Shown here: positions 897-18,810 of the stretch, one piece after another
How the letters are laid out: every line of letters starts with the position of its first letter
Position numbering within the stretch: the first letter of the stretch is position 1
Virus record (IMG/VR): IMGVR_UViG_3300035034_000196
Span: 1 to 24,954 of that record
Reading direction: 5' to 3' (one strand)
Origin: a virus
DNA length: 24,954 bases
The notes under the pieces: model-generated
Databases searched by the model: none
Seen by the model: only the letters and a program-made list of their open reading frames with translations
Told to the model about the DNA's origin: nothing
Made by a program: the position numbers and the translations under genes

Positions 897-1376
897 TCAT
901 GTCGTTTCCTTCAGTTTGTCGATTGAATGAATGGCTTCGTCAAGGTCGATGTAGAACCATTCGCCTTCCCGTCTCCACTTGACGTGGTATGCATGTATAG
1001 CCCGCTCTGCTACGTAGCAGTCCTCGAAGTAGACCGCGTAGTGCAACCGATAGTCACGCTTCGGGCAACCAGTCTGGTAGCCTTTGAGTCGTGACTCAGG
1101 GTTGAACGCTCGGCCTATCTTCAGGAGGTCGGGCCATGAAGGGTGTCCGATGATGTACACGAATCCCTGTCGATTAGTTTCCTCAGCCTTCGCAGCTGTT
1201 GGCACGTCCCTTCCGAAATCGTACAACTGCTTTGCCATCTCCCGTATGGATAGCCGCTCCTCTTTGTTGAGCGCGCTGTATTCCTTACGTCCACCTGCGA
1301 TGTTCTCTGCAAGTTTCCTGATGGCATTGTTCCACGTGTAGTACTCAAGGCGATCGACGGGTTCATACGATTGCAT
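897..1376 (-). CDS. GIY-YIG nuclease-domain protein (T5orf172/MUG113-like)
   Basis: A protein of 159 aa. Residues 71-77 (GFVYIIG) match the GIY half of the GIY-YIG fold, LLKIGRAFNPESRL (about 84-97) matches the KIG...R element of the T5orf172/MUG113 subgroup, and a later AERAIHAYH stretch is typical of the same subgroup. The N-terminal 70 residues are mostly helical and of unknown role. ATG 1376 begins 19 bases after the DNA polymerase stop; the Shine-Dalgarno is weak (GGCGGG very close). The open frame continues upstream into the polymerase gene, but that part is out of frame with it and is not credible. It probably acts as a site-specific nuclease or self-spreading gene. Confidence 0.75.
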   Translation of the reverse strand: MQSYEPVDRLEYYTWNNAIRKLAENIAGGRKEYSALNKEERLSIREMAKQLYDFGRDVPTAAKAEETNRQGFVYIIGHPSWPDLLKIGRAFNPESRLKGYQTGCPKRDYRLHYAVYFEDCYVAERAIHAYHVKWRREGEWFYIDLDEAIHSIDKLKETT

Positions 1377-1395: not shown

Positions 1396-3420
1396 TTAGT
1401 GTGTCTCTGCCCACGTGTTACCGATGTCGTAGTCTCCGCCAAGTGGACATCTGAGTCCAAATGCTTCACCTGCGTCGGCAATAGCCTGTGCTGCAATCCG
1501 TCCAACACGGTCGCCTTCTCCTTTCTTCACTGATAGTTGAACCTCGTCGTGGACGTTCAGCAGCGGCAGGACATCAAGCCCTTGTCGTCTGAACTCCTCG
1601 AACATTAGGATGAGTGCTCGCTTCATCACGAGCGCACCTGCTCCTTGGCATAGGAAGTTGAGTGCTGAGTGCTTGGAGCGCACAGGCACACGCCGACCGT
1701 CCAATCCTTTAAGGTAACCCCTTTCGGCAGAGGCATGAACCCGCTTGAGGAGCGCGTCAAACGCTGGTAGGCTTGAAAGCAGTCGTGCTCTTGATCGCTT
1801 GCCAAGCGCAGTAGTTTTGGATCGACGCTTGTTACCTGCGGGGTAGGCTGCGTAGAACTTGGTGGTCTTCGCAACGTCCCACTCACTGATGACGATGGTG
1901 CCGAGGTTGAAGTCTCCGCTTCCGTAGATGAATGCATAGAACCACGTCTTCGCAGTGTCACGTTTAGTGAGTCCCAACGCGATACGGTTTCGAGTATGCA
2001 TGTCAGTGCCATCTGCTTTGTTGCCATCGAGCACCGTCTTAGTGTATGCACCACCATCGAAGCGAGCCAAGAAGTGAGCGAGGATACGCAGCTCAAGAGC
2101 ATCCGCATCACAGCCCACCAAGTCACGGCCAATATCAGCAAGGAATAGAGCACGACACGCAGTGCCATACGGCTTGCCAGTCTTAGGTACTTGACCAAGG
2201 TTAGGACCAAAGTGAGACATCCGTCCTGTGCCTGTTCCCAAGGGGTCAACACGTCCATAAATCCTCCCGTCTGGTTGCACAGCTTTCAGCCATGCCTGCT
2301 TACCTTCTGCCAGTTGCGAGAGTCGCTTCTGTACCATGAGGTAGTCAGTGATCGTCTTCGTCTCGTCGAACGGTAGGGTGCCGAGAGTTTCCTCGTCGAT
2401 CTTTGCGCGCCCTTCCTTCGTGAGTTCCGATGGTTCCCAATCGTACTTCCAGCGCAGTCGGTTCTCGATCTGCACACGGGAGCCGGGGTTAAAGGGTATC
2501 AACTTGATCGGCTGATGTTCCGCACAAGTCTCACTCCAGTAACCCCGCTGCTCCTCTCCTTTGTACTTGCGAGTCACGGCTCCGAGTGCGGACACCTTAA
2601 AGCGACGATGAGGTTTCGCTGGTGTCTTACGCTTGCCATCCTTGGTAAAGAATGGAGCGAACGCTTCTCGTGCCTCGTTCTCAAGTACATGTAGTCTGGT
2701 GTACAACTCAGCGGCCAGCTTCTCTGCTGCCTCTACGTCGAAGCGCACACCACAACGCTCTTGCCAGCAGATGATCTCCGCTGTTGCCAACTCCATCTCG
2801 ACTGCGATGGGGCAATGTTCCAACCTCGCTTCCATGAATTCAATCACAGCTACGTTGGCCAGACAATCATCGACACAGTAGTCGTCCATCGTCTGAGTGA
2901 ATGGCATGGTCTTCCATGTGTGACCGAAGTCTTTAGGATCGAAGTGTGTCTTCAATGCCTTGCCCACACGGATAGCCCAGTCCTTCAAAGTCTGACTTCC
3001 CGGTCGCATCTTGTCGAAGCCGGGTCGATCCTTTCGTTTGTTCGCGAAGTCTTTGTCCCTCAGGTTCGGTACCGCGAGCTTGCCGAGTACCTTGCTGTCG
3101 AACTGATCGCTGGCTGCGAGTTCTAAGTCCACACCCATGATGTATTCTATCGCTGGCGTATCGTAGCCGATGATGTTGTGTCCACCTACGTACTCACCTT
3201 GTAGGAATTTGACGGCATCCTTCAGTGTCCCATTGCGAGGGGTAGGTGTCGTCGTGTAGTCACCGTCGAGGTCTTGATAGAACTCGTGATCGGTGAAGCG
3301 CAAGATCGCATTTGCATTGGCGCGATCCACTACGTTGATGCAGTGTATCTTCGTGATCTCCTCGCCTGCCTTGCATTGCCCCGGCAGTAAGCCGTCTGAT
3401 TCTAAGTCGAAAACTTTCAT
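1396..3420 (-). CDS. T7-like DNA polymerase (family A) with 3'-5' exonuclease
   Basis: A 674-aa protein aligning by eye over its whole length with T7 gp5. Exonuclease motifs: FDLESDGLL at the N-terminus (Exo I Asp/Glu), GGHNIIGYD (Exo II) and DYCVDDCLANV (Exo III). Polymerase motifs: CDADALELRILAHF (motif A), AKTWFYAFIYGSGD (motif B, keeping the Lys and both Tyr of T7) and NVHDEVQLSV near residue 625 (motif C). A Lys/Arg-rich insertion before FNPGSR sits where T7 has its thioredoxin-binding loop and is shorter. ATG 3420 follows GGAGAGACAG. It copies phage DNA with the helicase-primase encoded upstream. Its first 54 codons overlap the preceding gene in another frame. Confidence 0.97.
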   Translation of the reverse strand: MKVFDLESDGLLPGQCKAGEEITKIHCINVVDRANANAILRFTDHEFYQDLDGDYTTTPTPRNGTLKDAVKFLQGEYVGGHNIIGYDTPAIEYIMGVDLELAASDQFDSKVLGKLAVPNLRDKDFANKRKDRPGFDKMRPGSQTLKDWAIRVGKALKTHFDPKDFGHTWKTMPFTQTMDDYCVDDCLANVAVIEFMEARLEHCPIAVEMELATAEIICWQERCGVRFDVEAAEKLAAELYTRLHVLENEAREAFAPFFTKDGKRKTPAKPHRRFKVSALGAVTRKYKGEEQRGYWSETCAEHQPIKLIPFNPGSRVQIENRLRWKYDWEPSELTKEGRAKIDEETLGTLPFDETKTITDYLMVQKRLSQLAEGKQAWLKAVQPDGRIYGRVDPLGTGTGRMSHFGPNLGQVPKTGKPYGTACRALFLADIGRDLVGCDADALELRILAHFLARFDGGAYTKTVLDGNKADGTDMHTRNRIALGLTKRDTAKTWFYAFIYGSGDFNLGTIVISEWDVAKTTKFYAAYPAGNKRRSKTTALGKRSRARLLSSLPAFDALLKRVHASAERGYLKGLDGRRVPVRSKHSALNFLCQGAGALVMKRALILMFEEFRRQGLDVLPLLNVHDEVQLSVKKGEGDRVGRIAAQAIADAGEAFGLRCPLGGDYDIGNTWAETH

Positions 3421-9113: not shown

Positions 9114-9280
9114 TTGAATGCTCCATCAGTTGTGGTGTGTGGTTTGTAGCAGTCGGGACAGATAGGCTGACCCGCATAGGTTGAGTGCGCCAGCTTCATG
9201 CGGTGGTTGTGCTCCGCAATCAGCTGACGTTCGATCCGGTACGTAGGTACCAATGGTCTACGCGAAGAAGAAGTCGGCAT
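9101..9280 (-). CDS. Small Cys-containing protein overlapping the RNA polymerase end
   Basis: A 59-aa protein. ATG 9280 lies inside the last codons of RNA polymerase and is preceded by a near-perfect AGGAGG six bases upstream, which decides the start. The C-terminus has CPDCYKPHTTTDGAFKC, a partial zinc-ribbon pattern (C-x2-C plus a later Cys). It may be a small zinc-binding adaptor, and its translation is probably linked to that of the polymerase. Confidence 0.6.
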   Translation of the reverse strand: MPTSSSRRPLVPTYRIERQLIAEHNHRMKLAHSTYAGQPICPDCYKPHTTTDGAFKCKT

Positions 9281-11702
9281 CACGCACCTCCTCAAGGTTC
9301 AGCTCGCCTGCTTCAGGTGGCAACGGAACGTCCACCCACTTCTCACCCGGCAGTGCAGGTAGGCATTGCTGATACACGCTAACCAATTGCTCGGGAGTGT
9401 ACAGCTTGATGAACTCATCACGGATGATGAAGTGCATCTCGTCTACGTCACAGGCATGGACTCCGAACGAGTCATGGATCATGGCATAGTGGTTGGTCAC
9501 CCCTTGCTCAGCGAGTGTGTTCACCACCATCATCAGGTGAGTAGCATCCATCGAGTGAATGAAGTTGGGTGCAACCGATAGCTTGTGCTTGGCTGCGTCC
9601 ACATTCTTACTCACCACCTGCAACGTCAGTCGTACCCGCTGCCCTTGGAACAAGACCTTGAACACCTTGCCCTTCGACTTACGGTACGGCTGAACAACAG
9701 GCAGCCCGAGTGGTGTGACCCACGATGTCGGGATGTTCTCTTGCGAGTATGCCTTGCTGATTTCTTTCAGCCAATCCATCGCTTCAGCTGCGCGGTCAAC
9801 GACCTGCCTTATCGCTTGCTCAACGATAGGTGCAACGAAAGCTGCTGCCTTCCAGTTCTCATGGCCCGGAAGGAACTGCCCTTCGGTGCGCTTCCGCATT
9901 TCCTTTGCGATCTGGTCACGTATCCCAATGGATGTTACACTGTACGCAAACGTCATGCATGGTCGCTTGACCATAGTCCTGTCGAGTGCAGACCACCAGA
10001 CCTTCGCCATTGGCTCTCCATTTTCTACCAGTAAATCTTTTGCTACGTTCAGCACCTCGGTGTAGATGTCCGATGGTGCGTCGGTCGCCGTAAGATTCAC
10101 AGCACGTCCACCTTCCGCATCCCTCAGCATTGCGCTGAAGTGTTGGATGCCTGAGCATGAGCCGTCCATCGCAATCGGTAGGTGTGACACGTAGTCCTCA
10201 CCCTCGACCTGATAGCCAGTCCACTCAAAGCAGGCAGCAAGTGCACAGAACGGGTCGTCAGCCTCAGTCCAGAAGCGTTGACCGTCGAGCGGTAGCATCG
10301 CGCTGTCCATCAGCTGCTTGCTGTGTGCTATGGTCCATGCGACACGCTCGTCGAATGATACCTTATCAACACCGAACAGGTTGGCGATCTGAACAGCCAG
10401 CCAGTATGCTCCACTGTTGCCCAGCTTCTTGCCGTCAGCGAATTGGATCAGTGCCTTCGACACGTCGTCACCCTGAGGGTGCATGTCCGCAGACATGGAG
10501 TACACACGACCTCTGAAGTCCAGCGAGTGCGGGAAGTAGAACTCCTCGTTATCTCGCAGGTCTTGAGCGATGGCCAGCTTGGTCATCAACGAGATGCGCT
10601 TCGACCTGAGCTTTGCGTTCGCCTCATGCACATCACGTGCTCGCATTTTCCACTCGGTGAACACGTCATACATTTCCGGTGGCATTTTGGTGGCGTGTAG
10701 CTTGCGATCAATCGACGCTGGTATCTCTGGGATAGCCTCGTCGTTCATCGCTGGTAGTCCACCCATCACGCTGTCCGCAGCTCTGATCTCACGGATGACA
10801 TCAAGTACCGGGACGTTGACAGCCCACGGTGTAGCTTGGATGCGATTGACTGCATCGTAGATACCCGGCATGTCCGAGCTGAACAGGTCGTCTCGTGTGT
10901 CCGGTGATGCTGAACGTACGAGGTTAGCCTTCAGTCGTGCTGTCAGGTAACCGCCCGATGTCGGTGAGGTCCACGGCACAGGCGGCATGAGCATCGGTAA
11001 GTTGACTGGTCGGTCAGCTTCGAGCTGCATGTGGTTGCTTGCGAGTCGCTCGATGGCTGCCTCACTCATGGATATGAGCTTGGTCGTCTTCACACCTTGC
11101 TTCTGCATGGTCAGCTCAGCGAAGCCAGTCGCCTCGATGTACAGCTCGACCAGCTTGGTCCCCATAGTCAGCTTCTCACCCTCCGTCCAGCCCATGCCCT
11201 TGACACCTGCTATCTGTGCTGCCTTCCGCATGATGCGACGACGAGCGCCGGAGCTACTCCACTTCGCAGCCTTGCGGCTCATGCTGTTTGCCAGTGCAGG
11301 CTCGGCTTGTTCCAACTCCTCGAACTGGTAGTCCTCCTGAATGAGGTTCGCTACTCGCATCGCTGTGCGGGTGAGCTTGTCTCGTGAATGGGATGCGGTG
11401 ACACACACTCGGGCTGTGATGTACGCGATGGCATCGGCTCTCAGTTCCCGCATGTAGTGGAAGGCGAGCGGCACCTGCGTTGGTAGGTTACCATTGCCCC
11501 CATCTTCAAGGGCTGTCACTCTCTCCTCTATCACAGGGATCAGTGCACCCATAGCTACGAGTACCATTCCCTTTCCAGCAGTCACGTCACCTGCTCCCTG
11601 TCCCTCAGCTTCCCTGTAGTAGCGGGATACCCCGTCACTGAGCTGCTGTATCTCACGCATCTCTTGAAGTTCTCTTACAGTTGACTCATATTCCCTTTCC
11701 AT
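9258..11702 (-). CDS. T7-like single-subunit DNA-directed RNA polymerase
   Basis: An 814-aa protein matching T7 gp1. Catalytic elements: DGSCSGIQHFSAMLRD (T7 Asp537), MVKRPCMTFAYSVTSIG (Lys631 and Tyr639) and IHDSFGVHA near residue 744 (Asp812). The protein ends in DADFFFA, like the DFAFA end of T7. The segment after VVQPYRKSKGK corresponds to the T7 specificity loop that reads the promoter, and its sequence differs, consistent with a different promoter. ATG 11702 has AAAGG ten bases upstream; a GTG at 11747 lacks a ribosome site. A putative promoter for this enzyme lies about 60 bases upstream, suggesting self-amplification. Confidence 0.98.
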   Translation of the reverse strand: MEREYESTVRELQEMREIQQLSDGVSRYYREAEGQGAGDVTAGKGMVLVAMGALIPVIEERVTALEDGGNGNLPTQVPLAFHYMRELRADAIAYITARVCVTASHSRDKLTRTAMRVANLIQEDYQFEELEQAEPALANSMSRKAAKWSSSGARRRIMRKAAQIAGVKGMGWTEGEKLTMGTKLVELYIEATGFAELTMQKQGVKTTKLISMSEAAIERLASNHMQLEADRPVNLPMLMPPVPWTSPTSGGYLTARLKANLVRSASPDTRDDLFSSDMPGIYDAVNRIQATPWAVNVPVLDVIREIRAADSVMGGLPAMNDEAIPEIPASIDRKLHATKMPPEMYDVFTEWKMRARDVHEANAKLRSKRISLMTKLAIAQDLRDNEEFYFPHSLDFRGRVYSMSADMHPQGDDVSKALIQFADGKKLGNSGAYWLAVQIANLFGVDKVSFDERVAWTIAHSKQLMDSAMLPLDGQRFWTEADDPFCALAACFEWTGYQVEGEDYVSHLPIAMDGSCSGIQHFSAMLRDAEGGRAVNLTATDAPSDIYTEVLNVAKDLLVENGEPMAKVWWSALDRTMVKRPCMTFAYSVTSIGIRDQIAKEMRKRTEGQFLPGHENWKAAAFVAPIVEQAIRQVVDRAAEAMDWLKEISKAYSQENIPTSWVTPLGLPVVQPYRKSKGKVFKVLFQGQRVRLTLQVVSKNVDAAKHKLSVAPNFIHSMDATHLMMVVNTLAEQGVTNHYAMIHDSFGVHACDVDEMHFIIRDEFIKLYTPEQLVSVYQQCLPALPGEKWVDVPLPPEAGELNLEEVRDADFFFA

Positions 11703-11764
11703 ATCTTCAGTACCTTTAAGTTGACTGACAGTTACTTTAAGTATCACTATAAAGTGGTCTTGCT

Positions 11765-13694: not shown

Positions 13695-13795
13695 CTTGTC
13701 ATCCTCCATAGTTTGTACACACACTCAGCCACAGCCACGACGATGTACGCCGTGACCATGACACCGATCCAGAAGAACAGTTGCTTATCGTCCAC
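13691..13795 (-). CDS. 34-aa single-TM protein
   Basis: A tiny protein starting with GTG 13795: MDDKQLFFWIGVMVTAYIVVAVAECVYKLWRMTR. It has one membrane helix with Asp residues at the N-terminal end and basic residues after the helix. It overlaps both neighbours. The ribosome site is weak, so expression would depend on coupling. Confidence 0.45.
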   Translation of the reverse strand: MDDKQLFFWIGVMVTAYIVVAVAECVYKLWRMTR

Positions 13796-13961
13796 GTGCT
13801 TCGACCAGCTTCTGCGCCAGCGACTTCGGTTGCTCGGATACATGTCCGACCAACTGAGGCATTAGCTTGCCAGCTGGAGACCAGCCAAGCAGCTCGCTGT
13901 AAAATGACACCGAACGGGTGCCGTCAGGGTTTACGTGCGGGTTGATGTGTGACTGTCTCAT
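13785..13961 (-). CDS. Small protein with EQPKSLAQKLVEAR motif (paralogue 1)
   Basis: A 58-aa protein. Its C-terminal half, GWSPAGKLMP...EQPKSLAQKLVEARGR, is nearly the same as that of the 69-aa protein at 15045-15254. ATG 13961 overlaps the stop of the basic 44-aa gene as ATGA. The shared C-terminus with different N-termini suggests a common interaction helix. No known family is recognised. Confidence 0.6.
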   Translation of the reverse strand: MRQSHINPHVNPDGTRSVSFYSELLGWSPAGKLMPQLVGHVSEQPKSLAQKLVEARGR

Positions 13962-14966: not shown

Positions 14967-15044
14967 CCTCATCAGGCCCGACTGTAAGTCGTCGGACGAC
15001 GATCAACGCAACCCCCATGCGAGAGGTCACGCCGACCGTTTCGG
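14967..15044 (-). ncRNA. Hammerhead ribozyme-like RNA D (type II)
   Basis: In minus-strand order: CC (15043-44) then GAAA (15039-42). Stem III has 14 pairs, 15025-15038 against 15000-15013, with several G-T pairs. The GUC triplet is completed by TC at 14998-99, with predicted cleavage between 14998 and 14997. Stem I is GTCCGAC / GTCGGGC with loop GACTTACA. CTGATGA (14969-75) then GG. The TGA of the 69-aa gene directly precedes it and the next Shine-Dalgarno GAGGAG lies at its 3' end. Stem II has only two strong pairs, so activity needs testing. Confidence 0.75.
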
Positions 15045-15254
15045 TCACTTCGCGTGGAACATGGTGCGCCTGATCTGGTTCTGATCCGGCTTGCTCCGCG
15101 CTTCTACGAGCTTCTGCGCCAAAGACTTCGGCTGCTCGGGGATGACGTTGGTCACCTCAGGCATCAGTCTTCCCGAAGGAATCCAGCCCTTATCAGGGCC
15201 ACGAAAGATGCTCACGTTACCGCTATGCGGCTCGATGTTGGTTGTTTTCCTCAT
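15045..15254 (-). CDS. Small protein with EQPKSLAQKLVEAR motif (paralogue 2)
   Basis: A 69-aa protein: a polar N-terminus, then GWIPSGRLMPEVTNVIP and EQPKSLAQKLVEARSK. The second half matches the 58-aa protein at 13785-13961 almost residue for residue. ATG 15254 has GGAG eight bases upstream and overlaps the previous stop as ATGA. Its own TGA touches the stem II strand of ribozyme-like element D, so translation could reach the ribozyme. The function is unknown. Confidence 0.65.
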   Translation of the reverse strand: MRKTTNIEPHSGNVSIFRGPDKGWIPSGRLMPEVTNVIPEQPKSLAQKLVEARSKPDQNQIRRTMFHAK

Positions 15255-15618: not shown

Positions 15619-15672
15619 CCTCATCAGGCCCAGCAGTATCGTCGCTGGACGACCACCCGAAGGTGGTTTCGG
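15619..15672 (-). ncRNA. Hammerhead ribozyme-like RNA C (type II)
   Basis: The most compact copy. CC (15671-72), GAAA (15667-70), stem III CCACC-TTCG-GGTGG (15653-15666), the GUC triplet with predicted cleavage between 15651 and 15650, stem I GTCCAGC / GCTGGGC with the nine-base loop GACGATACT (15628-15650), then CTGATGA (15621-27) and GG. It fills the spacer between the 168-aa gene stop and the 34-aa gene. Its 3' end is that gene's Shine-Dalgarno. Confidence 0.8.
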
Positions 15673-16348: not shown

Positions 16349-16356
16349 CAGTTTAT

Positions 16357-16420
16357 CCTCATCAGCGCAGGCAGTATCGTCGCCTACGGACAGCCCCGGC
16401 TTGCGCCGGGACCGTTTCGG
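16357..16420 (-). ncRNA. Hammerhead ribozyme-like RNA A (type II)
   Basis: CC (16419-20), GAAA (16415-18), stem III of ten pairs closed by a GCAA tetraloop (16391-16414), the GUC triplet with predicted cleavage between 16389 and 16388, stem I CGTAGGC / GCCTGCG with loop GACGATACT (16366-16388), CTGATGA (16359-65), then GG. The loop equals that of copy C although the stem differs, so pairing has been kept by compensating changes. It lies between the 75-aa and 48-aa genes. Confidence 0.82.
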
Positions 16421-16425
16421 TCACG

Positions 16426-16653
16426 TTATGCTGCTACAGCTTCAGCTTCGCTGGTTTCAGCTTCGGTGTCAACCTTTGGCTTAGCGTCAAGTACCGACGC
16501 GAAGTAGGTTTCAATCGCCTGAATTTTGGTCACGATATTCTTCGGAACCGAGACACCAGCGAGACCAGCATTGCCAAGCGCGGTGACCAACTTGCGGTTT
16601 TTAGCGCGGGCGGACTGGAGTGATGCACGTTGTTCTGCGTTTAACTTGCTCAT
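16426..16653 (-). CDS. Hypothetical early protein with Ala/Glu tail
   Basis: A 75-aa protein: a helical basic N-terminus (KLNAEQRASLQSARAKNRKLV), a central NAGLAGVSVPKNIVTKIQAIETYF and an acidic Ala/Glu-rich end (DTEAETSEAEAVAA). ATG 16653 has GAGG of ribozyme-like element B upstream. It stops just before element A. It could be a small dimeric DNA-binding or anti-host factor; no family is recognised. Confidence 0.62.
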   Translation of the reverse strand: MSKLNAEQRASLQSARAKNRKLVTALGNAGLAGVSVPKNIVTKIQAIETYFASVLDAKPKVDTEAETSEAEAVAA

Positions 16654-16661
16654 ATTTGTAT

Positions 16662-16722
16662 CCTCATCAGGTCCAGAAAAGCGTCTGGACGACAGCCCCG
16701 GCTTGCGCCGGGACCGTTTCGG
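16662..16722 (-). ncRNA. Hammerhead ribozyme-like RNA B (type II)
   Basis: CC (16721-22), GAAA (16717-20), the same ten-pair stem III with GCAA loop as copy A (16693-16716), GUC with predicted cleavage between 16691 and 16690, stem I GTCCAGA / TCTGGAC with loop CGCTTT (16671-16690), CTGATGA (16664-70), GG. It lies between the 63-aa and 75-aa genes, and its end supplies the GAGG ribosome site. Confidence 0.82.
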
Positions 16723-16736
16723 TCGCGGTGTTTTAC

Positions 16737-16928
16737 TTACTTAGCTCCGATAGATCGGATGCCCATTTTGTGAGCGGTGCATCGCCCTAATATGTAAGTT
16801 ATCGCGGAACGTACCCGCGCACTTTCGCTGGTCTCGCGGTGTTGATGAAGCAGCACGATCAGCTGGTCAGCAGTAAGCTCGTTCGCCTCGTGTTCCCCTA
16901 ATTCCTGTGTCGTTCGATATGTAGTCAT
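16737..16928 (-). CDS. Hypothetical early protein
   Basis: A 63-aa helical protein: TTYRTTQELGEHEANELTAD, then QLIVLLHQHRETSESARVR and a basic end. ATG 16928 overlaps the previous stop as ATGA. Its Shine-Dalgarno GAGGATA is the surviving 3' end of a deleted ribozyme-like element. The stop is followed by a 14-base spacer and element B. The family is unknown. Confidence 0.62.
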   Translation of the reverse strand: MTTYRTTQELGEHEANELTADQLIVLLHQHRETSESARVRSAITYILGRCTAHKMGIRSIGAK

Positions 16929-17062
16929 GCTATGTATCCTCGTTTCGGTCGCGGTGTTTTACTCGGTTTATTCACTGCCGTTAGGTGCTGCTTCGCGGCT
17001 GCCGGGTTCTTCGCCCGGTTCATGCTGGCACGCCTTGCGGCTTTCTGCTCCGCAGGACTCAC
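16925..17062 (-). CDS. Small basic protein whose end is encoded by a ribozyme remnant
   Basis: A 45-aa, Lys/Arg/Ala-rich protein. GTG 17062 overlaps the previous stop (GTGA); an ATG at 17023 with AAGG upstream is the alternative start. Its last codons (TPRPKRGYIA) read through the remnant of a hammerhead-like element at 16933-16963, so the deletion that removed the ribozyme also created this C-terminus. The stop overlaps the next ATG. It probably binds nucleic acid if it is made. Confidence 0.5.
   Translation of the reverse strand: MSPAEQKAARRASMNRAKNPAAAKQHLTAVNKPSKTPRPKRGYIA
16933..16963 (-). other. Remnant of a hammerhead-like element (internal deletion)
   Basis: 23 bases (16941-16963) are identical to 16715-16737 of element B, and nine bases (16933-16941) are identical to 16657-16665. 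In B these two blocks enclose stem III, the cleavage site, stem I and most of CTGATGA. Here they are joined directly, so about 49 bases are missing. The GAGGATA ribosome site is kept. Confidence 0.75.
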
Positions 17063-17205: not shown

Positions 17206-17278
17206 ATCCTCATCAGCAGCAGGCTAAGTCCTGCCGGACGCGAGGTGCAACCCGAAGGTCACACCCTACGTTTCGGAT
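17206..17278 (-). ncRNA. Hammerhead ribozyme-like RNA E (type II, 4-bp stem II)
   Basis: ATCC (17275-78) pairs with GGAT (17206-09), giving a four-pair stem II, the best of the series. GAAA is at 17271-74. Stem III has 14 positions with a TTCG loop and one A-C mismatch (17239-17270). Cleavage after TC is predicted between 17237 and 17236. Stem I is CGGCAGG / CCTGCTG with loop ACTTAG (17217-17236), then CTGATGA (17210-16). The base before U is G, as in the other copies. It begins two bases after the stop of the 65-aa gene. Confidence 0.82.
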
Positions 17279-17477: not shown

Positions 17478-17493
17478 GTCAATCTCCAGTTAA

Positions 17494-17538
17494 TTTCGGG
17501 GTATCTCATCAGGTACGGGTACCAATCCCGTACGATTA
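17494..17538 (-). ncRNA. Permuted, weak hammerhead-like element F (type III-like)
   Basis: It has AATC with predicted cleavage before a perfect stem I, GTACGGG / CCCGTAC with loop ATTGGTA (17513-17533), CTGATGA (17506-12), then eight bases and GAAA (17494-97). Here GAAA is downstream, so stem III would pair TAAT upstream with ATTA downstream (four pairs), the type III order. Stem II is reduced to about one pair, so it may be degenerate or inactive. It precedes the first early gene. Confidence 0.4.
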
Positions 17539-17539
17539 T

Positions 17540-17935
17540 GCACTGCTCGTGGTTCTCACTTGTCCCACAATTCGGCGTGCTGTCCGTTTTCTTATCGCGC
17601 TGCATTCAGCGACCGAGGCCGGTGTCCCTCGCCAGCACCTCGCGGCATGAACGGCGAGGCTGAGCTGGTGTCGATCTTCGCAGGGCTTCCGTGGAAGGCT
17701 TGCTGCGTTGAACGAGGACCGACACTGGCATGGACCGATATTGGCTGTCAACACTTTTCGGAAAATAAGATTCGAGAATCACCCGGAATGAGGCTGTCAA
17801 AGGGCTGGCGACCCGAAATTAAATTTGAGACAGGTCCGAAAATGGACCGATTCTCCGCAGCTCAGCAGTAGCTACGGCGGCCCGTTCGGCGCTGCGACGC
17901 CCAATGAACAAGGAACACGCCGCGTGATCCCGCCC
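17540..17935 (-). other. Early leader/promoter region without a credible gene
   Basis: No coding frame here has a good ribosome site. On the minus strand the hexamer TTGACA occurs twice, each followed by GCC (17795-17800 and 17746-17751), in the interval where T7 has its host promoters A1-A3. Neither is followed at 16-18 bases by a good TATAAT-like box, so a host promoter is only a possibility. Confidence 0.35.
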
Positions 17936-17936
17936 G

Positions 17937-18640
17937 CCCGCGTCAAGGAATCGCACACGCCCGCCTGCCCGCGACGATGATACGCGACACGCCCACGCGG
18001 TACCCTACTCGCGCACGTGTGTGTGCACCCGCGTCAAGGATACACGCACGGATGCCCGGCACCGTTCCCGGTATCGTCTCTTGTGGTTGGCCCCCCCGGT
18101 CATTGACGCGCCCGCCTGCCTGCGGACCTGCACGTGCGCGGTGAGTGTGGCTGCGAGTGTGGCTTGGAGTGTGCCTGTCCTGAGAGGCCCTGAGAGGCCG
18201 CCACACAGGCGCACGTGCAGGGGCGCGGTTAGGGTACCGGGAGTGACTGATCGTTGACTGGGAGTTAACTGGGAGTGAACTGGGAGGGATACTGGGCGTG
18301 TGCGTGCAGGCGTGCGCGTCAATGAGAAAAAAACATATCTGGGCACAGACGCAGCCAAGCACAGCAGCCTCGCGGTTCCTACTCGCAGGCGCGCCCGCCC
18401 GGTGTCTGTACGTGTGACCGCGAGTTAACTGGCAGTTCCCTGCGAGTGTACGCGCCAGAGGCAAGGCCGTCGAACTGTAAGCCAACCGCACGTCCATCTG
18501 TAAGCCAACCGCACGTACACCTGCACGGTGTCTGTACGTGTGACCCCAAGTGAACTGGCAGTCGAACTGTTCGTGGACCCATTACGCCGCGCCCGCGTGA
18601 CGCGCATGTCACCCGCCCGCCCGCTATGAGGTGTGCGTAC
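17937..18640. repeat. GC-rich noncoding zone with short direct repeats
   Basis: The composition differs sharply from the genes (runs of CGCCCGCC and GTGTGTGC). It contains three 11-bp units of (A/G)ACTGGGAG(T/G)(T/G) at 18256-18288; a 37-bp imperfect repeat beginning CGGTGTCTGTACGTGTGACC at 18400-18436 and 18526-18562; a 19-bp repeat CTGTAAGCCAACCGCACGT at 18475 and 18498; and a doubled CTGAGAGGCC near 18180. The position between TerL and the early genes suggests a genome-end, packaging or replication-start region. Confidence 0.65.
18079..18097 (-). promoter_or_regulatory. Putative phage RNA polymerase promoter 3 (left-end type)
   Basis: An exact copy of GGGGGGGCCAACCACAAGA on the minus strand, followed by GACGATACC. 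A small hairpin, ACCG-GGAA-CGGT (18061-18072), follows six bases downstream. It lies in the noncoding zone facing the early genes, as T7 phiOL does near the left genome end. Confidence 0.72.
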
Positions 18641-18732
18641 AGGGCCACGGGGGAAGTCTCGCTCGCTACACGTTATGATGCCTGCTCGGATAAATCTGGC
18701 AAATCTTTTGGTCTTATCGCCAATAGAACTGG
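18641..18732. other. Short spacer between repeat zone and tRNA
   Basis: I see no gene and no clear structure here. It marks a change from GC-rich repeat sequence to ordinary composition at about 18690. Confidence 0.3.
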
Positions 18733-18810
18733 TGGTTGATCTTCAGGGACTCGAACCCCGGACCTCCGAAGTATCAGTTCGGCGCTCTAACCAGTCTGAG
18801 CTAAAGATCA
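18733..18810 (-). tRNA. tRNA-Ile (GAT anticodon)
   Basis: A complete cloverleaf on the minus strand: acceptor stem TGATCTT / AAGATCA (seven pairs), D stem GCTC / GAGC, anticodon stem CCGAA / TTCGG around the loop CTGATAC (anticodon GAT), T stem CGGGG / CCCTG with loop TTCGAGT, then discriminator A and an encoded CCA. It is oriented like the phage genes and lies between TerL and the early region. No integrase is visible, so this looks like a functional phage tRNA rather than an attachment fragment. Confidence 0.93.

Follow-up and report, generated by a model that had tools for sequence, protein, structure and literature searches.

Early mRNAs of phage T7 are cut by host RNase III at sites between the early genes. 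Hammerhead ribozymes of bacteria and phages have, to our knowledge, been known since 2011, and their function is unsettled. Clusters of hammerheads were found to flank prophage genes; tandem copies cut in vitro, and one cluster did so in E. coli (Perreault et al. 2011, PMC3088659). The same authors suggested that prophage transcripts are processed to single-gene mRNAs. Loop I of type II hammerheads usually forms a pseudoknot with the 3' tail that follows stem II (PMC3088659).

The window considered here is the whole analysed stretch of 24,954 bases, an IMG/VR virus record; the window and several of the compared contigs are incomplete sequences. The source phage is T7-like (Autographiviridae), as it has a single-subunit RNA polymerase gene close to the early region. 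The best named matches of this polymerase are from Mycobacterium phage jiawei and Caulobacter phage S2B (37% amino-acid identity). The genes run on the minus strand, and in the early region (14.9-17.6 kb) hammerhead ribozymes lie between the small genes. None of the eight array-region proteins queried against PHROGs and Pfam (the shortest ORFs excluded) could be named. The array region had no blastn match among the INPHARED phages, and a close-protein scan with the RNA polymerase as the query produced no loci; the relatives described below were recruited by a ribozyme pattern scan.

Hammerheads of the early region

Five intact type II hammerheads were found in the window, all on the minus strand (Table 1). 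All five have the CUGANGA and GAAA core residues and a U-H cleavage site, as do four copies in each of two relatives. Stems I and III are closed by loops, stem II is open, and the stems are kept by pairing, as expected for type II. Four of the five copies match Rfam family RF02276 at 27.0-36.4 bits, all below the gathering cutoff of 37 bits. A close family member on L243 scores 48.7 bits, and the low scores in the window are a matter of the scoring threshold and not of a structural defect. The stem-and-core descriptor produced 378 matches with stem II of at least 2 bp in the first batch of real sequences, versus a single match, lacking stem II, in shuffled sequence.

Table 1. Coordinates of ribozymes and associated features (positions in the window unless a phage record is named)
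Feature	Position	Strand	Description
Single-subunit RNA polymerase ORF	9258-11747		identified by protein comparison
Type III hammerhead heading the array	17491-17538	minus	found by inspection; cleavage site ATC, 7-bp stem I, 1-bp stem II, 4-bp stem III, loop I-loop II pseudoknot GGTA:TACC
Type II copy 1	17208-17276 (core to stem II)	minus	fused SD GAGGATTTTACC then ATG; long stem III; no Rfam match, found by the stem-and-core descriptor
Relic	16938-16950	minus	GACCGAAAC followed immediately by GAGG; stems I and III and most of the core have been lost
Type II copy 2	16662-16722	minus	fused SD GAGGATACAAAT then ATG
Type II copy 3 (first reported)	16357-16420	minus	stem II CC/GG, GAAA, stem III, cleavage after GTC, stem I hairpin, CTGATGA
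Copy 3, stem II 5' shoulder	16421-16428	minus	TAACGTGA; CGT (11.7-11.5) pairs with loop I ACG
Copy 3, SD	16356-16360	minus	GAGGA = G8, A9, G10.1, G10.2, 10.3; ATG at 16348-16346
Type II copy 4	15619-15672	minus	fused SD GAGGAGAATGAAA then ATG
Type II copy 5	14967-15044	minus	fused SD GAGGAGATTGTT then ATG; TGA stop of the upstream gene (15047-15045) adjoins stem II
Caulobacter phage S2B (MN857473), type III hammerhead	44983-45040 of the record (L363:643-700)	minus	RF00008, 46.6 bits
Rhizobium phage RHEph01 (JX483873), hammerheads	658-715, 2078-2148, 2544-2605		scored by Rfam, below curated cutoffs
Pelagibacter phage HTVC168P (OR420735), hammerheads	39717-39772, 1226-1292		scored by Rfam, below curated cutoffs

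The array has two further elements. Firstly, it is headed by a sixth hammerhead, which is of type III and has its Shine-Dalgarno (SD) box CTGGAG downstream, outside the ribozyme. This copy has no Rfam match; its counterparts at the equivalent place in two relatives score 34.5 and 29.4 bits with RF00008. Secondly, there is a relic of a type II copy, which has retained its SD box and precedes the ATG of a 63-aa ORF (16737-16928). The 21 nt upstream of the relic are identical to those of copy 2.

Several other features were observed around the array. The early region contains a pair of small paralogous genes on the minus strand, 13785-13961 and 15045-15254 (47% identity over 57 aa); the stop codon of the latter adjoins hammerhead copy 5. 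The region 17540-18730 upstream of the array is rich in repeats of short words, e.g. GTAAGCCAACCGCACGT, which occurs twice, and is possibly the early promoter region. The word TCTTGTGGTTGGCCCCCC occurs at about 18080 and 19360. A tRNA-Ile (GAT) gene (18733-18810, minus strand) lies between the terminase gene and the region upstream of the array.

Overlap of the ribozyme core with the Shine-Dalgarno box

The original prediction was that the catalytic core at 16357-16365 doubles as the SD box, and CTGATGAGG is indeed located at 16365-16357 on the minus strand. As described there, the core runs into the SD box in every intact copy: in each of the five type II hammerheads A9-G10.1-G10.2 leads into GAGGA(T) or GAGGAG. 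The SD bases are thus ribozyme bases, G8 and A9 belonging to the core and G10.1 and G10.2 to stem II, all inside the folded molecule. The start codon had been placed 6-9 bases downstream; the distance from GAGG or GAGGAG to ATG is 6-8 nt in the intact copies and reaches 9 only if the relic is counted. Counted from position 10.1, the ATG lies at a nearly constant 10 nt. No second SD box exists between the ribozyme and the ATG in any of the five type II copies of the window.

A similar overlap in related phages had been proposed as a check, and it was found in four other contigs. Two of them, G001 and G002 (44 kb), encode an RNA polymerase 67% identical to that of the window; each contains four intact type II copies, every one of them with a fused SD box, behind a type III copy. 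The SD box is also fused in the only type II copy of L015 and in all four type II copies of L243. Among the distinct copies of this family the overlap occurs in 13 of 13, versus 1 of 136 unrelated type II hammerheads from an unbiased sample, and thus goes beyond chance. The overlap is real and is kept in relatives.

The ribozymes themselves are under selection, since in the 13 distinct copies all 221 cells of the 17 pairs counted are paired, and 11 of these 17 pairs covary, with changes on both sides. The covariation score of the 13 copies is 0.725 versus 0.198 in shuffled alignments and at most 0.102 in slid versions; this and the other tests take no account of kinship between copies. Even near-identical relatives show a double-sided change in stem I, cct/agg to cat/atg. 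Stem II is the sole invariant stem (G-C, G-C): G10.2-C11.2 is fixed in 13 of 13 copies, whereas stems I and III vary freely. The fixation is consistent with an added constraint from the SD box.

Pattern scans of viral contigs together with the descriptor yielded 589 distinct hammerheads. In the unbiased scan, where stem II beyond 10.1 and the downstream region were left free, there were 139 type II copies; 119 have a separate SD box, four have a fused one (three of these from L243, of the same lineage), and none was found for 16. Base 10.2 in these copies is A in 52, G in 36, C in 26 and T in 25. The start codons in the survey lie mostly 20-40 nt downstream, and the type II ribozyme adjoins the upstream stop codon, at 0-5 nt, in 286 of 415 cases. 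A ribozyme before a gene is a general arrangement, whereas fusion with the SD box is a trait of the lineage of the window, as follows from the 119 separate and four fused boxes. An apparent enrichment of GG at 10.2 with ATG exactly 10 nt downstream was dropped: start codons had been chosen with the help of the SD box, and the test was therefore circular; when the SD box was not used to pick the start, there was no enrichment (18 of 60 versus 36 of 139).

The family also differs in its pseudoknot. Hammerheads with distant start codons confirm the pseudoknot with the 3' tail, which has at least 4 bp in 46% of copies (mean 3.46 versus 2.51 after permutation). No 3'-tail pseudoknot of at least 4 bp was found in the 13 copies of the fused-SD family. 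The partner of loop I in 12 of the 13 family copies is the 5' shoulder of stem II (11.7-11.5), versus 11% elsewhere; this pairing covaries between C-G and A-U (9:4). The relocation leaves the 3' side, i.e. the SD box and the spacer, free. Permutation of the shoulders within the family gave only P=0.08, as the shoulders are nearly alike, and was replaced by comparison with segments of other hammerheads and by the covariation count. As a separate observation, 22 loci (including L450, L452, L382 and L388) contain the type II form CTGATGAGCAGCCACCCATG with a candidate ATG 10 nt past stem II and no SD box; there the candidate ATG is directly behind a 3'-tail pseudoknot with the loop GTGGTT.

Processing of early mRNAs or a translation switch

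We believe that the spacers are self-cleaving mRNA-processing modules in which the ribozyme and the SD box have been merged to save space, and would give this reading, which rests on comparative sequence analysis, about two chances in three. A long early transcript would begin upstream of 17.5 kb and proceed leftward. Each hammerhead would fold during synthesis and make a single cut between stems III and I. Each small gene would thus receive its own mRNA, starting with a 5'-OH stem I hairpin followed by CUGAUGAGGA(G)-N6-8-AUG; just past the stop codon, the next ribozyme would supply the stem III hairpin that forms the 3' end. Such modules would do, independently of the host, what the RNase III sites do between the early genes of T7. 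The spacer may have been compressed in this lineage until bases came to be shared, with the upstream stop codon touching the 5' shoulder, and with stem II and the last core bases serving as the SD box; the stabilising pseudoknot on the 5' shoulder would keep the SD side open. In favour of processing, the structure is under selection, every type II copy of the window, G001, G002, L015 and L243 has a fused SD box, and hammerheads of both types occur in the early regions of named Autographiviridae. The original prediction that a stable stem I hairpin remains at the 5' end agrees with our folding, as the cleaved mRNA is predicted to start with a stem I hairpin of 7-8 bp. By analogy, this hairpin, left 5 nt before the SD box, could lower translation, which speaks against processing: an artificial twister construct that retained structure upstream of its SD box was weak (PMC5052635).

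The reading offered originally was that cleavage gates translation. The uncut RNA would hold the SD box in the core and stem II, the halves would separate after the cut and free it, and the gene would be translated from the cut mRNA only. Indeed, folding of the ribozyme locks up G8, A9, G10.1 and G10.2, the overlap is kept in the four other contigs with the G-C pair at 10.2/11.2 fixed, and engineered switches of the hammerhead and twister kinds, which mask the SD box, act in this way in E. coli (PMC5052635). However, stem II is short and weaker than in copies without an SD box: it has 2 bp in 9 of 13 family copies versus 19 of 178 hammerheads without an SD box there (P=4e-6, not corrected for kinship). 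The computed cost of opening the SD box is nearly flat, 1.3-2.7 kcal/mol before and 0.6-3.2 kcal/mol after cleavage, in terms of secondary-structure energies, with tertiary contacts and the pseudoknot outside the model. Forcing stem II costs 2-7 kcal/mol (again secondary structure only), and pairing with the anti-SD sequence, at -6 to -9 kcal/mol, could win. Nor are the products held by stem II alone, as had been assumed, since the loop I/5'-shoulder pseudoknot of 3-5 bp also joins them. The ribozyme-less relic retains the SD box, and no ligand, signal or other regulatory input able to gate cleavage is visible.

Homologous genes provide a further argument against the switch. The G001 homologue of the 75-aa window gene with a fused SD box stands behind a type III copy and has a separate box; conversely, the gene that follows the type III copy in the window has a G001 homologue whose box is fused (40% identity over 50 aa and 57% over 30 aa for the two swapped pairs). 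Related phages with the ribozyme but the SD box elsewhere were to count against the prediction; this layout was found in the type III copies, in RHEph01 and in HTVC168P, and in none of the type II copies of the close family. The original interpretation is thus partly supported: the location of the SD bases in the core and stem II and their conservation hold, whereas the short stem II, the flat opening energy, the relocated pseudoknot, the SD box of the relic and the homologue swap do not support cleavage as a translation switch, which we consider unlikely. Since the ribozyme and the ribosome-binding site share bases, folding and ribosome binding are mutually exclusive at each site, and this logical exclusion remains. 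Judging from the sequences, masking of the SD box is probably weak and cutting probably constitutive; a compact form of mRNA processing seems a better description of the overlap than a translation switch.

As another explanation, genome compaction, or the spread of one founder module from gene to gene, could have produced the overlap as a by-product. The GA at the end of the core would by chance have been followed by a GG in stem II, with the start codon coming to lie 10 nt further on; the ribozymes may serve processing or be nearly neutral passengers. The near-constant spacing between 10.1 and the ATG would fit this scenario, as would the identical 5' halves of two type II copies, the gene order of the array, which is shuffled between relatives while the ribozyme-SD modules persist, and the relic, which shows that a ribozyme can be lost. 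On the other hand, stems I and III have diverged fully with full covariation, hence the copies are old and selected, and the fixed G10.2 would not be needed in a passive by-product. We regard this explanation as quite improbable. Still further down the scale, and very improbable, are circular or re-ligated mRNAs, in which the 5' stem I-CUGAUGAGG and the 3' CCGAAA-stem III-GUC>p of a fragment would rebuild the active site and ligate to a gene-sized circle. The type II geometry allows this; the gene would then form the loop of stem II. However, spliced or circular products of clustered hammerheads were sought by Perreault et al. and none was detected (PMC3088659), and with a stem II of 2 bp whose loop would be several hundred nucleotides long, open ends are favoured.

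Named phages and comparison with known systems

Caulobacter phage S2B provides a second natural layout that favours gating by cleavage. Its type III hammerhead ends on the ATG of the annotated gene gp065c; stem-loop II carries a full SD box TAAGGAGG, and the 7-bp stem III CATGCGT/ACGCATG contains the start codon. Judged by this arrangement, S2B is the better candidate for cleavage-gated translation. Phage jiawei has the SD box in a similar position, but with an extra U in the core region and stem III of 4 bp only, and has no Rfam match. A scan for type III patterns with an SD box in loop II gave 20 matches, none convincing as a second case of the S2B kind; a further S2B match to RF02276 at 43040-43109 was judged doubtful. 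A more general idea, that of a natural device in which ribozyme and ribosome are rivals for one set of bases at each early gene, coupling cleavage, upstream translation and the next initiation, and that evolved at least twice in T7-like phages (in type II with the SD box in the core and stem II, in type III of S2B with the SD box in loop II and the AUG in stem III), appears rather unlikely to us.

The hammerheads of RHEph01 and HTVC168P are of types III and II, lie in the early region and have no matching feature in the record annotation. Together with S2B, they suggest that early-region hammerheads are a wider habit of Autographiviridae. A search of an open-access library found no paper linking early-region hammerheads with this family. 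The arrays of the window are a compact, repeated case of catalytic-core bases doubling as a ribosome-binding site. S2B, RHEph01 and HTVC168P, which have recorded laboratory hosts, allow one to ask whether phages replace RNase III with ribozymes; these named relatives also bear on whether cutting and translation initiation compete.

The closest described systems are the prophage type II clusters (PMC3088659, RF02276), with the same core, an open stem II of about 2 bp and copies flanking single small genes. They differ in that the loop I pseudoknot of the known consensus involves the 3' tail, whereas here it involves the 5' shoulder, the 3' side being taken up by the SD box; neither 'Shine' nor 'ribosome binding' occurs in the main text of that paper. 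The hammerhead of haloviruses HF1/HF2 (HHphage, PMC3088659) lies 13 nt upstream of the helicase start and, like those of the window, directly before an early gene; it is, however, a single copy in an archaeal virus, and the passage devoted to it does not mention overlap with an SD box. In the artificial SD-masking hammerhead and twister switches (PMC5052635) the ribozyme and the SD box share a stem, as here, and cutting can free the box, but the anti-SD stem is designed, whereas the natural stem II has 2 bp and no ligand domain is seen. In insulators of the RiboJ type the hammerhead cut trims the 5' end before the ribosome-binding site, as proposed here, and RiboJ increases transcript and protein levels; these insulators are artificial and their binding site is separate from the ribozyme, whereas here the SD box is inside it (PMC6206723). 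The RNase III sites of T7 occupy the same genome region in a related phage group and lead to the outcome proposed here, cut early mRNAs ending in hairpins, but the cutter in T7 is a host protein, and here it would be the RNA itself.
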